Below are positions 7,358 through 12,103 of a DNA stretch of 64,000 nucleotides, in pieces. Position 1 is the first letter of the stretch. Each line of letters starts with the position of its first letter. The DNA is from Arthrobacter gallicola. GTDB lineage: Bacteria > Actinomycetota > Actinomycetes > Actinomycetales > Micrococcaceae. A program made the translations under genes and the position numbers. The notes below the pieces were generated by a model. That model did not search any database and was not told where the DNA came from. It saw only the letters and a program-made list of their open reading frames with translations. The stretch covers positions 540,185 through 604,184 of the forward strand of contig NZ_JACSQD010000001.1 of NCBI RefSeq assembly GCF_014836775.1. The letters are read 5' to 3'.

Positions 7358-7935
7358 TAGGTGAAGCTGCCGATCACACCAAACGGCGGCTCATTGGTGG
7401 CCATATTGGTCCGAATAAGGCCTGACCGGTCACACCTGCGGCAGGCCGGGCACCCAGGCAGGGCGCCGGGGATGGATGATCCGGAAGCTGGTGATGGGGT
7501 TTTTCAGTGGGCACCACCTCTCTTCCTGCAGGTCAACGCCGATATAACACGCCGAGGTGCTGGAATGTTCCCAGGGGGACGGCAGGCATTATGTAAGGCT
7601 GCAAATCGGTCCCGGCTGTTGGTGGGGGACGTTATGTCAACTGAATTTCACAGCCGTTCCCGCCGTGGGCGAGAGCAAAAACACGTAAGGTCCTCACGCA
7701 GATTCCACTGCCTGGAAACGGTGTGCGGACAGCGCTGGGCTGTTGGGAGCGGCGTGAGAGCCGCGGTGCGTTCGCCGAAGGGTGCCGAGCGGCGAATTCC
7801 GCGCCGCCGCAGGTTGGTACAAACAACCGGCGGGGGTGGCCTGAACCACTTTCCGGCACCTTGTCTTGCACGCCGATAATCCACATTATGTCAACTTGTA
7901 ATCTGCGTATTGCATCAGATGAATCAATTGTCCCC
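7358..7935. other. Non-coding stretch on the left side of the recombinase remnant
   Basis: About 580 bases with no convincing gene. Frames across it give low-complexity Arg/Pro-rich translations with no family resemblance. It contains GACCGGTC (7423-7430), two copies of TTATGTCAACT (7632-7642 and 7886-7896) and a small inverted repeat, ATAAT-CCAC-ATTAT (7876-7889), next to the integrase remnant. No tRNA gene that could act as an integration site was found. Confidence 0.6.
7632..7896 (+). repeat. Direct repeat TTATGTCAACT flanking a 243-bp non-coding segment
   Basis: The 11-mer TTATGTCAACT occurs at 7632-7642 and 7886-7896. The right copy overlaps the inverted repeat ATAAT-CCAC-ATTAT at 7876-7889, about 50 bp before the integrase tail. 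Arms around a short spacer resemble tyrosine-recombinase core sites, so this could be a remnant recombination site. That role is inference. Confidence 0.45.
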
Positions 7936-8204
7936 TGCTGCGCCGGCTCCGGCGCTACCTCAACGAGCTGGGCCTGCCGCTGGATGGCCTGGACCTGCAC
8001 TCGCTCCGGCGCTCCTACGCAACGCACCGGCTGGAGGACTGATGGGATCCTAGATTCGTGCAACATCAGATGGGCCACGAACACGCCTCAACCACCGGGA
8101 TCTACCAGTTCGTCAGCGACGACTTCCGCAACACCACGCTCAAGGCGGCGCTGGACCGCACCATGGATGAAGTCCTGGGCGTGCAGATGCGGGGGCAGTG
8201 GTGA
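7936..8204 (+). pseudogene. Tyrosine recombinase/integrase, C-terminal fragment with in-frame TGA
   Basis: Only the last 90 or so residues of a phage-type integrase remain. The box-II histidine/arginine motif is present as LHSLRRSYATHRL, followed after the lesion by the QMGHEHASTTGIYQFVS block holding the second histidine and the catalytic tyrosine. TGA at 8040-8042 interrupts the frame where relatives would most likely have a glycine codon (GGA to TGA); the same frame resumes and ends at 8202-8204. No N-terminal core-binding domain can be found upstream. Not expected to be active. Confidence 0.8.
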
Positions 8205-8535
8205 GGCGCGAAGTCGAATACAAGTGGTGGCTTTCCGAGCTCATGGCAGCACGGGGATTGCACAACACCACCGACCTCATCCCCTCCTGGCCGAGCGGGG
8301 CATCACCTTGTCCCGGCCACAGGTCTACCGGCTCGTCAACCAGAAAGCCGAACGCGTCGCACTGCAGGTTATCGCCGCGATCTGCGACATCTTCTCCTGC
8401 GGACCCGAGGACCTCATCACCGTCACAGCCGCCGACGTCCGCGCCCGCAGAACCGGCACCAGCGCCCCCAACGTCGTTGACCTGAACCGCACCGTCAGAC
8501 CCCGACGGGCACGCATCATCGACGATGACCGCTGA
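8201..8535 (+). pseudogene. Small Cro/CI-like HTH protein, frameshifted
   Basis: Starts with GTG overlapping the integrase stop. The first frame reads VRREVEYKWWLSELMAARGL and then changes frame around the CCCC run at 8281-8284. The rest, in the next frame, gives LLAERGITLSRPQVYRLVNQ, a DNA-recognition helix-turn-helix, then LQVIAAICDIFSCGPEDLI, typical of small XRE/Cro regulators. One missing C restores the whole ORF of about 110 codons. It probably regulated or accompanied the recombinases. Confidence 0.75.
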
Positions 8536-10150
8536 CAAACCCGAAGGCCTCAGCCCCCGCAGCACCAGCCGCGGCCGGCCCCGCACACGGGGATCGCGAC
8601 GTGTGCACGCTGCGGCCGAAACGTCGGCCGGACCCGGGCCACCTGGCCCGAAGGCCGAATCTGCGGCCCCTGCTTCACCACCGCCACCCGCACCTACGGG
8701 ATCTGCCCCGGCTGCGGCCAGCACCGGCTACTGCCCGGCCCGCCCGAAACCATCGAAGGGCCCCGCTGCGCACCCTGCTCAGGCATCCTCCACGACTTCC
8801 ACTGCAGCCGCTGCAATACGGAAGGCGAGTTCTACCGGCGCGGCATCTGCGCCCGCTGCGCCCTCCGAGATGACCTCAACGAACTACTGCTCACACACCC
8901 TGCCGAACCAGAGACTGCCGGCAAAATCGTCGATGTCCTCTGCAAGGCAGACCGGCCCGAAAGCATCATCACCTGGAAGCGCTCCCCCGAAGTCCAGACC
9001 CTCCTGACATCTCTGTCATGCGGGCAAACTCCCTTGACACACGAAGGCTTCGACGCCGCGGCTGAGTCGGCGGAACGACCAGCCAATCACCTGCCTGCCC
9101 TGTTCATCCATCACGGGCTCCTCCCCTACCAAGACCCGCACCTGGCCCGGTTCGAGACTTGGATTGACAACAAGCTCCGCGACCTGCCCGAGGAGGTCGC
9201 CAAACCCCTCAGCCAGTTCGCCACCTGGCATCACCTCCGCCGCATCCGGTCCCTGACAACACCGGAAAAGAGCGCCCAAGCCCCGGTGCACTCCGCCAAA
9301 CAAGAGATCACCGAAACCATCAAGTTCCTGGACTGGCTCTGGGAAGCCCACCAGCGGACGGCCGCGAGCTGCACCCAGCAAGACATCGAAACCTGGCTCG
9401 CCACCGGCCCCACAACCAGAAAAGCCATCCGCACCTTCATCGTCTTCATCAACAACACCGGCACAAATCACCGGGTGGAGATGGGTCACTACACCGCCAA
9501 AACACGTCCAACCATCACACAGGACCAACGCGTGGCATGGCTGAGGGAACTGCTGACCGGCACCAGTGAATCCCTGCCCTACAGAGTCGCCGGCATCCTG
9601 CTGCTTCTCTACGCCCAACCGCTCGTGCGGGTAGCCAAACTCCGGACCGATGCCGTCGAAATCAGCCGAACCAACGAAAAGGTGAGGATCAGCTTCGGCG
9701 CCCATCCGGTGCCCGTTCCCGAGCCTTTCGCAGATCTACTTCAAGAGCACCTCGCGAGCCGTCCGAATCTCAGAACCGGGGCGGGCACTCAAAGCCGGTG
9801 GCTCTTCCCGGGGAACCCGCGCCGGTCAGTCACTACACCCAAACACCATCATGGACAGGCTCCGTAACCTGGGCATCGACCTGCGCGGGGCACGAATCAC
9901 TGCCTTGGACGAACACCTGTTAGTCTCACCGCCGCCACTGGTCGCCGACGCACTCGGATACAGCCACCAAATCGCATTCCTCCACGCCGACAACGCAGGC
10001 GACGCATGGGCCCGCTACGTCAACCGGCGGACAACCCGTAAACAAATTGGTTCTCCGGTCGGATTAGGCGCGGCTGTTCGAGTAAATCCGGACAGACGAG
10101 GCCGCGGTTGCTCAGTGGGCGTCAGGTCCAGCTTTTCCGCTTTCCGATGA
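8525..10150 (+). pseudogene. Zinc-ribbon, recombinase-like protein with two frameshifts
   Basis: An ATG at 8525 overlaps the HTH gene end. After an apparent 1-base loss near 8587 the frame encodes four closely spaced CxxC knuckles (CARC, CGPC, CPGC, CAPC) and two more (CSRC, CARC), then about 350 residues with the helical layout of a tyrosine recombinase. The key residues look replaced: AQPLVRVAKL where the first Arg motif is expected, and ARITALDEHL where HxLRR is expected. A second shift near 9820 separates the last part. Proteins of this kind occur beside integrase and XRE genes in other actinobacteria, where they may bind DNA without cutting. The exact C-terminus is uncertain. Confidence 0.65.
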
Positions 10151-10301
10151 AGTAGCCGAAAATCATCACGACAACGCCACTAATCACGATGACATATGCC
10201 CAGACGTTGTTCGGTTCAGACTGAAAAGCCAGCATCGTGCCCACGAGGGCGTTCACTGCCCCCACGCAGAGTAGGGCTATTCCAATCCCTCGAGGCGTCA
10301 T
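10122..10301 (-). CDS. Small two-helix membrane protein (59 aa)
   Basis: A short ORF on the minus strand, starting with ATG at 10301. It predicts a 59-residue protein with two hydrophobic helices (GIGIALLCVGAVNALVGTML and VWAYVIVISGVVVMIFGYF) and a basic C-terminus (GKRKSWT), so a small inner-membrane protein with both ends probably inside. Support for a real gene: TAGGAT sits exactly 6 nt before the ATG, the same leaderless arrangement as many neighbours, and the composition is membrane-like with no stop. No family recognised. It is convergent with the recombinase remnant. Confidence 0.55.
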   Translation of the reverse strand: MTPRGIGIALLCVGAVNALVGTMLAFQSEPNNVWAYVIVISGVVVMIFGYFIGKRKSWT

Positions 10302-10563
10302 GCGGCCATCCTAGAGTCATCTCGTTGGGAACCGCTAGAAATTCCTGTCCGCTCACCCTTTTGGTTTCACTTGTCGCGTCTGGAGTCGGAGTCCGGCACA
10401 GGAATACGCATGACTTTCATCCGCAGGGGTGCCAGTAACACTCTGGAAGCCTCCCCTGGGTGGCTGCGGGGGGCTCGACCTAGCAGTGTCCGCCGCTCTC
10501 GTTGCATTCTGAGGCGTGATCTGCCTCCCCTGGAAAGGTCCCGTCAGAAGCTTGCGCAGAAAC
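10302..10563. other. Intergenic region between the small membrane protein and the SatD promoter
   Basis: About 260 bases. Apart from the -10 of the small membrane protein (TAGGAT on the minus strand, 10308-10313) no gene, terminator or repeat stands out. A frame continuous with satD crosses it, but it lacks gene-like codon use and a start with a ribosome site. Confidence 0.5.
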
Positions 10564-10598
10564 GCTTATACTCCTGCCTAAATAAGCTATATGCTTAT
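10564..10598 (+). promoter_or_regulatory. Promoter with three ATAAGC/GCTTAT half-sites upstream of the SatD-like gene
   Basis: GCTTAT (10564-10569), ATAAGC (10582-10587) and GCTTAT (10593-10598) lie within 35 bp of AT-rich sequence in an otherwise GC-rich region. The last two form the perfect inverted repeat ATAAGC-TATAT-GCTTAT. The first overlaps a good -10 hexamer, TATACT (10567-10572), so a bound repressor would cover the promoter and start site. The downstream protein has its own C-terminal HTH, making autoregulation plausible. Confidence 0.55.
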
Positions 10599-10601
10599 GA
10601 G

Positions 10602-11249
10602 ATGCCGAATTCTGTGATTGCACTCATCGTCGACATCGTGAAGTCGCGCGAACTCAGCGACCGGGTCGGCGCGCAGCGTTCCATCCGCGAGGCGTTCGCG
10701 CAGGCACATGGCACCCGCCCGATGCACCGCCCGCTCTGGCCCACCGTCGGAGACGAATTCCAGGCCGTGTTCCACACCCTGGGTGATGCTCTGCTGACAA
10801 CCTCGCTGGTGCGCCTCCTGCTTCCGGAGGGTGTGGACTGCAGGTTTGGCCTGGGACGAGGAATCACGGCCGACGTCGATGAACTGGCTCCTGGTGCCAT
10901 TCAGGATGGGACAGCGTGGTGGAATGCCCGGGAAGCCATTGAGGAAACGCATCATCGCGAACATGGCACGGACCCCTACCTGCGGTCCTGGTTCGTTTCG
11001 GATGAAGCTAAAGCCGCTGGTGAGGCATCGCTGGTCAACGGTTTTCTGCTGCTCCGGGACGCGTCAATCAGTGCCATGAGTCCGCGCGCCCGCCGTTTGA
11101 CTGCCGGTGTCCTGCTCGGTGTGTCCCAAACGGAACTTGCGCGGCGGGAGAAGATTACCCAGTCGGCTGTTTCGCAGAGTCTGCGGCGCTCGGGTGGATC
11201 GGCGCTTCTGGCGGCGCATCAGGAACTGGAAAAGGGCATGCTGCGGTGA
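10602..11249 (+). CDS. SatD family protein with C-terminal helix-turn-helix
   Basis: 215-residue SatD-like protein. The N-terminal part has IALIVDIVKSRELSDR (Asp11) and PTVGDEFQAVF (GDEF at 50-53); the spacing and the acidic residues recall the metal-binding palm of GGDEF and class III nucleotidyl cyclases, but no activity has been shown for this family. RFGLGRG and the Trp-containing DGTAWWNAREAIE follow. Residues about 174-198 (VSQTELARREKITQSAVSQSLRR) form a DNA-binding HTH. The ATG at 10602 is chosen because upstream frames overlap the promoter. The stop overlaps the next gene (GTGA), so the two are translationally coupled. Confidence 0.85.
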   Translation: MPNSVIALIVDIVKSRELSDRVGAQRSIREAFAQAHGTRPMHRPLWPTVGDEFQAVFHTLGDALLTTSLVRLLLPEGVDCRFGLGRGITADVDELAPGAIQDGTAWWNAREAIEETHHREHGTDPYLRSWFVSDEAKAAGEASLVNGFLLLRDASISAMSPRARRLTAGVLLGVSQTELARREKITQSAVSQSLRRSGGSALLAAHQELEKGMLR

Positions 11250-12103
11250 TCGGTTCAACCCTTTTGCTGATGGTCGGCCTGGTGGATCTCGCTGGCGGGC
11301 TGCGCCTTGGCCGCACCTTGCCCGGCAGGCTGCTGCTCCTCGCTGCCGTGTCGGTGCTGGTCATTACCGGGCTTGGCATCCCCTTCCTTGCCGCAGCGGC
11401 CTGTGGAGCCCTTGCCTTTGGCTGGACACTCAGCATGCCTGCACCAAAACCGATGGAAGCAGGCCGGATGGACAGCTCCTCCCCCGCTGTCCCCCGGCTC
11501 TGGCCGGTCATCGTGCTGTTTGTCCTGGTTTTCGGAATCACCGTCTTTGACCGGACGGCCCAGTCGGCATCCGGTTTCCTCCTGGATGCCTACTCCCTCA
11601 CGGCCCTGGAATCTGCGTCGTCCGTCTCTGTGGAAACCATCGTCGCCGCTGCTGCTGTTGCCGTCTTCCTCACCAGAAGCGCAAACATCGTCGCCCTTGC
11701 CGCACTGGGCCGCGCCCATCAGGAAGACACCCACCCTGGGAACAGCGGGAGGGGCGAAGAAAGTCCCGCGGCAACACAACAGCCCAACGTCTGGGAGTTC
11801 TTTATCCGCAGCAGGCAGGTGGCCAGCGTCCGTGCCGGGGAAAAACCTGCCCGTGGTCCAGCCCTCAAGGGCGGCCGCCTCATCGGTCCGATTGAGCGAC
11901 TGCTCATTGTCGTCCTGGCTTTTGCCGGGGCACCACAGATCATTGCCGCACTTGCAGCTGCGAAGGGCGTTGTCCGGTTCCCGGAAATTGCAGAAGACCG
12001 CGGAACAGGCTCAAAGGCCGAGGAATTCCTTGTGGGCAGTCTGGCAAGCTGGACGCTGTCGGCTCTCGCTGTGCTCTACCTGGCTCTCGTTCACAACGGC
12101 TAA
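11246..12103 (+). CDS. Polytopic membrane protein with DUF3307-like C-terminus, partner of SatD
   Basis: 285 residues, GTG start overlapping the SatD stop. The hydrophobic profile suggests about six to seven transmembrane helices: near 1-19, 29-60, 86-101 and 130-155, then after a polar linker at 160-205 a final membrane part at 215-283. The C-terminal block with LIGPIER (212-218), AAAKGVVRFPEI (238-249) and AEEFLVGSLASW (258-269) resembles the end of DUF3307 proteins, which I know as frequent neighbours of SatD genes. The N-terminal two thirds is not recognisable. Function unknown; pairing with SatD suggests a joint membrane-linked role. Confidence 0.8.
   Translation: MIGSTLLLMVGLVDLAGGLRLGRTLPGRLLLLAAVSVLVITGLGIPFLAAAACGALAFGWTLSMPAPKPMEAGRMDSSSPAVPRLWPVIVLFVLVFGITVFDRTAQSASGFLLDAYSLTALESASSVSVETIVAAAAVAVFLTRSANIVALAALGRAHQEDTHPGNSGRGEESPAATQQPNVWEFFIRSRQVASVRAGEKPARGPALKGGRLIGPIERLLIVVLAFAGAPQIIAALAAAKGVVRFPEIAEDRGTGSKAEEFLVGSLASWTLSALAVLYLALVHNG

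Follow-up and report, generated by a model that had tools for sequence, protein, structure and literature searches.

The window analysed here is a 64,000-nucleotide stretch of the Arthrobacter gallicola contig NZ_JACSQD010000001.1 (assembly GCF_014836775.1, positions 540,185 to 604,184). It contains a satD-like gene (product P0001) followed by a gene for a polytopic membrane protein (P0002, hereafter the partner), a putative operator upstream of them and the remnant of a recombinase region. The features, in coordinates of the window, are as follows.

7897–10435, + strand: decayed XerD-type recombinase region lying outside the module (blastn junction between 7896 and 10436; matches to XerD of plasmids; broken frames)
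10564–10569, + strand: operator half-site 1, GCTTAT, overlapping a putative -10-like TATACT at 10567–10572 (layout search)
10582–10587, − strand: operator half-site 2, ATAAGC in inverted orientation, separated from half-site 1 by N12 (layout search)
10593–10598, + strand: operator half-site 3, GCTTAT, separated from half-site 2 by N5 and from the start codon by 3 bases (layout search)
10602–11249, + strand: satD-like gene, 215 aa, ATG start, class III cyclase-like palm plus C-terminal helix-turn-helix (HTH) (open reading frame, Pfam, AlphaFold2, Foldseek)
10614–10997, + strand: palm domain, residues 5–132 (AlphaFold2/DSSP; hhalign to class III cyclases)
10632–10634, + strand: codon of D11 at the end of β1, the position of the first metal Asp of class III cyclases (conserved in 122/125)
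10752–10757, + strand: codons of D51 and E52 within GDEFQ, β2-β3 hairpin; D51 takes the position of the second metal Asp (D51 125/125, E52 119/125)
11082–11192, + strand: HTH, residues 161–197 (DSSP; weak HTH/sigma-4-like matches in Pfam and NCBIfam)
11246–11249, + strand: GTGA start/stop overlap of the two genes, 4 nt (reading frames; identical overlap on plasmid pZXY21)
11246–12103, + strand: polytopic membrane partner, 285 aa, GTG start (open reading frame, homologue searches, model, hydrophobicity)
11864–12064, + strand: constant C-terminal module of the partner, residues 207–273, GGRxIGxxERxL ... AAKGxxRFPE ... AExFLxGSxxS (invariant residues)

The first protein matches the SatD family of Pfam (PF16264) over residues 6–120 with an E-value of 2.3e-13 (50.7 bits against a cut-off of 29). 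The SatD domain, its VDIVKSRE and GDEFQ motifs and the C-terminal HTH, all of which had been proposed in an earlier sequence-only reading of this DNA, are real; the HTH is formed by helices 161–171, 176–183 and 187–197 (DSSP on the AlphaFold2 model). Position 10564, given there as the start, is where an operator half-site begins and no start codon. The description of the second protein as polytopic and overlapping the first by GTGA was also borne out, as it has about six hydrophobic spans (the membrane topology is uncertain) and the 4-nt overlap is exact. The partner had no match in Pfam, NCBIfam or PADLOC; its AlphaFold2 model is only fair (pLDDT 75), and a fold search with it matched nothing in the PDB. 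Comparison with Arthrobacter pullicola gave dN/dS values of 0.21 for satD and 0.12 for the partner gene, and both genes are thus under purifying selection.

The recombinase remnant, of the XerD type found on arthrobacterial plasmids, lies between the backbone and the pair. In A. pullicola the pair is present at 90% DNA identity and is joined directly to the backbone, with the scar absent (blastn), which rules out the scar as the carrier of the pair; genome G058 lacks both the pair and the scar. The mobile-element scar noticed earlier is genuine, but it is an independent insertion and not a part of the module. The pair recurs on the conjugative plasmid pZXY21, where the two genes overlap in the same way and the operator is nearly identical. 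The plasmid copy and the strain differences together indicate a variable spot, a mobile pair and a scar that was inserted separately. It may be added that in A. pullicola about 7 kb of extra DNA lie between the pair and an SDR gene (L271 1138–8181, genome G497), so that the region is variable on both sides. The window satD is the third in this genome, and it alone represents its type among the eight genus members sampled; the genome has a second SatD-partner pair (L088 5299–6472), situated between rseP (M50 protease) and ispG, in an MEP pathway/envelope operon.

The palm domain and its active-site positions

The AlphaFold2 model of SatD, built on a 27-sequence alignment, has a pLDDT of 91.2 and a pTM of 0.88. 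DSSP assigns palm strands to residues 5–12, 43–47, 52–57, 80–87 and 129–132 and helices to residues 21–36, 60–73 and 104–120, and the order of these elements is that of a palm, β-α-β-β-α-β, as in class III cyclases. The top Foldseek matches in the PDB were soluble guanylate cyclase, CYG12 and a photoactivated adenylyl cyclase, and GGDEF domains and the Pycsar cyclases 7r65 and 8jsz were within the best fifty. The E-values were modest (4e-4) and the TM-scores about 0.4, low values that are partly accounted for by the inclusion of the HTH in the query.

The relationship of the palm is settled better by sequence profiles than by fold-search scores. With hhalign, the N-terminal domain of SatD matched 14 actinobacterial class III cyclases with an E-value of 4.4e-9 (Prob 96%), while the set containing the window protein matched 25 GGDEF domains with an E-value of 5e-3 (Prob 7%). 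A second SatD set (G404 group) gave 5.8e-8 for class III cyclases and 2.3e-5 (Prob 76%) for GGDEF domains; in the controls, comprising reversed, column-shuffled and unrelated alignments, all E-values were at least 0.099. Class III cyclase-like proteins of other genomes were also matched directly by a SatD profile search, and no GGDEF (PF00990) match was found by Pfam in the window protein. Judged from these profiles, class III cyclases are clearly a better match for SatD than GGDEF domains are. The palm that had been suspected from the motifs is agreed on by the predicted fold, which was to serve as a check and indeed returned a palm (pLDDT 91) with cyclase and GGDEF matches, by the profile comparison and by the conserved acidic positions.

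An ancestry from GGDEF or PucR-type proteins was considered and was weaker than that from class III cyclases in the profile comparison. The PucR/CdaR-type regulators 3onq and 9f80, which combine a GGDEF-like domain (GGDEF_2) with an HTH (HTH_30), resemble SatD in having a palm-like domain followed by an HTH, and in Foldseek they match most of its chain. However, no profile match was obtained with the GGDEF_2-HTH_30 proteins tested (hhalign, E of at least 0.099), and SatD differs from them in its metal-site residues, its local operator of three half-sites and its membrane partner. This match would speak for the view that SatD is a plain one-component transcription factor with a degenerate, leftover palm and the membrane gene as a simple target, a form whose existence is illustrated by the partnerless clade described below; the near-invariance of D11, S15 and D51 in partner-linked members is unlike a leftover and, together with the missing profile match, makes this view very improbable. 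Apparent PucR-type GGDEF_2-HTH_30 regulator genes, without profile similarity to SatD, were noticed 3–5 kb from SatD in three Herbiconiux loci (L065, L066 and L083).

Among 125 distinct SatD members, conserved positions are D51 (125), S15 (123), D11 (122), G50 (122), E52 (119), Q54 (114) and R110 (106), and the two Asp singled out in the earlier reading are thus conserved in nearly all of them. In the model and the alignments, D11 at the end of β1 and D51 in the β2-β3 hairpin occupy the predicted positions of the class III metal Asp pair. Two such catalytic Asp, D102 and D146, are present in EaPycC of Pycsar (PMC11224242). SatD shares with class III cyclases, including PycC, the fold, a DIxxS motif, the GD hairpin and both metal Asp. 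Class III cyclases also have a position for a base-recognition Lys and one for a transition-state Asn. When these were mapped onto SatD through profile alignments, the first (position 47; in cyclases Lys or Glu, ahead of the GD motif) was A/R/I/P and not conserved in the 125 members, and the second (position 107; the Asn of the cyclase NxxxR pattern) was W/H/I/Y, with R110 (106/125) one residue out of register. Because both residues are missing, SatD is no canonical cyclase; it differs further in its fused C-terminal HTH. Taken together, the members of the SatD family seem capable of binding a metal-nucleotide, although without the standard residue set of a cyclase.

The operator and the membrane partner

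The putative operator GCTTAT-N12-ATAAGC-N5-GCTTAT, which is new in this analysis, spans 10564–10598 and is followed by the ATG at 10602. It is the strongest functional clue for SatD. The same layout with other letters was found upstream of other satD genes: GGTTAT in L077, GTTATA in L019, GCTTGT in L092 and CTTCAC in L110. Three perfect half-sites were present in 10 of 124 SatD upstream regions, compared with 0.0 in dinucleotide shuffles; at one mismatch or fewer the numbers were 27 and 2.35, and at two or fewer 64 and 16.6, the background being twenty sets of shuffles and the counts not being independent, as the upstream sequences are related. About half of the regions therefore lack the layout even at two mismatches. 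Inverted repeats of at least 7 bases occurred in 48 of the 124 regions as against 9.7 in shuffled ones. The letters change on both arms together, from GCTTAT to GGTTAT, GTTATA, GCTTGT or CTTCAC, and such paired changes across lineages would be hard to explain other than by a conserved operator. In three Propionibacteriaceae-type loci (L080, L082 and L084), a palindrome of the CTTCAC/GTGAAG type was seen near the SatD start.

A pattern search found the exact inner palindrome ATAAGC-N5-GCTTAT once in this genome (G000) and once in A. pullicola (G497), each time at the promoter of satD; 19 further genomes of the genus lacked it, and allowing up to one mismatch revealed no further copy in G000. 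Both genomes carry this SatD-partner pair. As the palindrome is single in the genome, SatD probably represses its own operon alone, that is, it would act as a local self-regulator. Repression rather than activation is suggested by the position of the operator, which covers the -10-like TATACT and the leader. No consensus sigma-70 promoter or terminator above chance was found at the locus, and Rfam gave no RNA element match near it. When the operator letters were compared with the recognition helix after removal of palm distance, no clear co-variation was seen (partial r 0.09; 109/2000 permutations).

A protein with the partner module is encoded downstream on the same strand in 105 of 124 distinct SatDs and on the opposite strand in 4 more (L076, L080, L082 and L084), and some of the remaining SatDs without a partner are cut off by contig ends. 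The pairing is near-obligate, and the coupling of a palm protein to a membrane protein, first noticed at this single locus, is near-universal. SatD and its partner were found, usually paired, in the genomes examined from Actinomycetota to Bacteroidota/KSB1-type. Divergent SatDs are present in 145 of 149 genomes belonging to the family of the window genome, where one older copy has a fixed chromosomal place in the order rseP-satD-partner-ispG (M50 protease and GcpE neighbours). Two unusual arrangements should be mentioned: in the Propionibacteriaceae-type loci L080, L082 and L084 the partner is apparently transcribed divergently from SatD, and in Microbacterium elymi (L076 7995–11180) SatD lies within a 1061-aa open frame, inside which the partner module is encoded by the other strand.

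The constant part of the partner family is its last ~75 residues, which include the pattern GGxxIGxxERxL, and G210, G214, E217, R218, K240, R244, E259, G264 and S268 are invariant. This C-terminal part is homologous to the C-terminus of DUF3307 proteins adjoining SatD genes. A DUF3307-like C-terminus had been proposed for the partner; the homology to SatD-linked DUF3307 proteins stands, but the shared part lies beyond the Pfam model (PF11750), which covers the N-terminal half and is not matched by the window partner up to E 1; no PF11750 match was found in ten SatD-bearing genomes. The survey of SatD neighbourhoods did reveal SatD-linked DUF3307 proteins carrying the module, eight of them in the G404 group (L204, L208, L210, L233, L237, L249, L254 and L255), whereas the module is missing from nearly all DUF3307 loci read that have no SatD, with L229 as the exception. 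Since the module tracks SatD among DUF3307 proteins, it is the module, and not DUF3307 itself, that is the partner of SatD. In genome G451, L229 encodes a DUF3307 protein with the module and no SatD in the stretch, and L200, on another contig, holds a partnerless SatD; the two are possibly a split pair.

One clade of SatDs has no partner, and all its sequences read (32 rows, with further losses in L316) have Asn at position 11, while every partner-linked SatD in this comparison has Asp; a few partnerless SatDs elsewhere retain D11. Being a single clade, it counts as one event. It nevertheless suggests that the metal site may matter together with the partner.

Proposed function and alternatives

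We favour, with moderate confidence, a two-gene membrane-stress signalling module that binds a nucleotide and represses itself. Computation backs the palm fold, the residue conservation, the operator with its single occurrence in the genome, and the pairing with the partner, whereas nucleotide binding, repression as opposed to activation, contact with the partner and the stress signal are inferred. The palm would very probably bind a metal-nucleotide at D11/D51. With three half-sites lying over its own promoter, the HTH is expected to bind them and to repress its own operon but hardly anything beyond it. The product of the second gene would be a membrane partner dedicated to SatD; its C-terminal module, which is conserved and charged, could serve as a natural surface for docking or sensing, possibly through physical contact with SatD. 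A stress reported by the partner, or by the nucleotide bound in the palm, would make SatD leave the operator, and the operon would be induced. A self-repressor that binds a nucleotide and is coupled to a membrane protein of its own is the most economical mechanism.

The main rival is that SatD is an active nucleotide synthase, a mono- or di-nucleotide cyclase of unusual specificity, and that it opens or closes the membrane partner through its product in the manner of Pycsar or Panoptes, with the HTH only setting the level of expression. A palm with both metal Asp and modelled structural matches to the Pycsar cyclases would fit this, and the two-gene layout recalls the synthase and membrane protein of Panoptes OptS/OptE (PMC12657218). 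The presence of N11 throughout the partnerless clade also looks as if chemistry were needed only with a partner. Against it, positions 47 and 107 hold neither the Lys nor the Asn, R110 is out of register, and no nucleotide-binding domain was recognised in the partner by Pfam; we consider a synthase rather unlikely.

Less probable still is a toxin-antitoxin-like unit in which the membrane protein is the toxin and SatD the antitoxin and autorepressor. The autorepressor-type operator, the 4-nt overlap, the small size of the operon, the copy on a conjugative plasmid and the patchy presence of the window-type copy in the genus are all compatible with such a unit. However, divergent copies occupy fixed chromosomal places such as rseP-satD-partner-ispG, nearly all genomes of the family have SatD-type genes, the palm of SatD is almost invariant and active-site-like, which is unusual in an antitoxin, and the partner is a large protein with conserved charged residues.

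The defence role that had been suggested for the pair is unlikely, and a dedicated anti-phage module is hardly to be expected. A palm protein next to a membrane protein does recall Panoptes and Pycsar, the window copy is situated in variable DNA beside the recombinase remnant, and a few neighbouring proteins match PADLOC models. Yet PADLOC matched neither SatD nor the partner, and when it was run on both proteins and 89 neighbours it gave no consistent picture of a defence island, the matches being scattered, with one protein per family for almost all; housekeeping neighbours dominate, and SatDs in 145 of 149 family genomes do not fit a defence module. Phage or viral carriage was likewise rejected, as no copy of the pair was found in phage records or viral contigs and the fold matches in BFVD were only to generic cyclase/GGDEF domains. 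As for the individual systems, Pycsar combines a pyrimidine cyclase with a cNMP-binding effector, PycTM or PycTIR, and here PADLOC gave no match and no nucleotide-binding domain was found in the partner. Panoptes OptSE consists of an mCpol palm protein and a downstream S-2TMβ effector; the SatD pair has a similar two-gene layout, but its palm is closest to class III cyclases among the families tested (class III cyclases, GGDEF domains and GGDEF_2-HTH_30 proteins), its partner is polytopic, neither the S-2TMβ domain (Pfam, PADLOC, fold search) nor a β-barrel nucleotide-binding domain was recognised in it, and the pair has no linkage to defence.

The preferred reading, a self-repressing nucleotide-binding module, gives a testable role to a family for which we found no mechanism papers and no biochemistry in the open-licence literature, and no solved structure. 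The window protein scores above the gathering threshold of PF16264, and palm plus HTH is seen across its members. The family is connected with the sat operon of Streptococcus mutans, work on which reportedly concerns Ffh and acid tolerance, to judge from a title cited in PMC4275253. The handles gained here are the link to class III cyclases, the catalytic-type residues, the operator and the partnerless clade without the first metal Asp. In the Micrococcaceae-type genomes read, one older copy is the immediate neighbour of rseP, which encodes an envelope protease, and this points to envelope stress. More tentatively, the pair may represent a widespread signalling system in which a palm descended from cyclases produces or detects an unrecognised nucleotide, governs a dedicated membrane protein via the constant C-terminal module and represses itself via the three-half-site operator, the operator letters keeping paralogs in one cell apart.

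Another older SatD copy is partnerless and lies beside a HAD hydrolase gene, and in L153 it is near the gene for seryl-tRNA synthetase. The partnerless N11 paralog is widespread in the family (L144 6170–6961 and L288–L317), with a HAD hydrolase neighbour in the loci examined.
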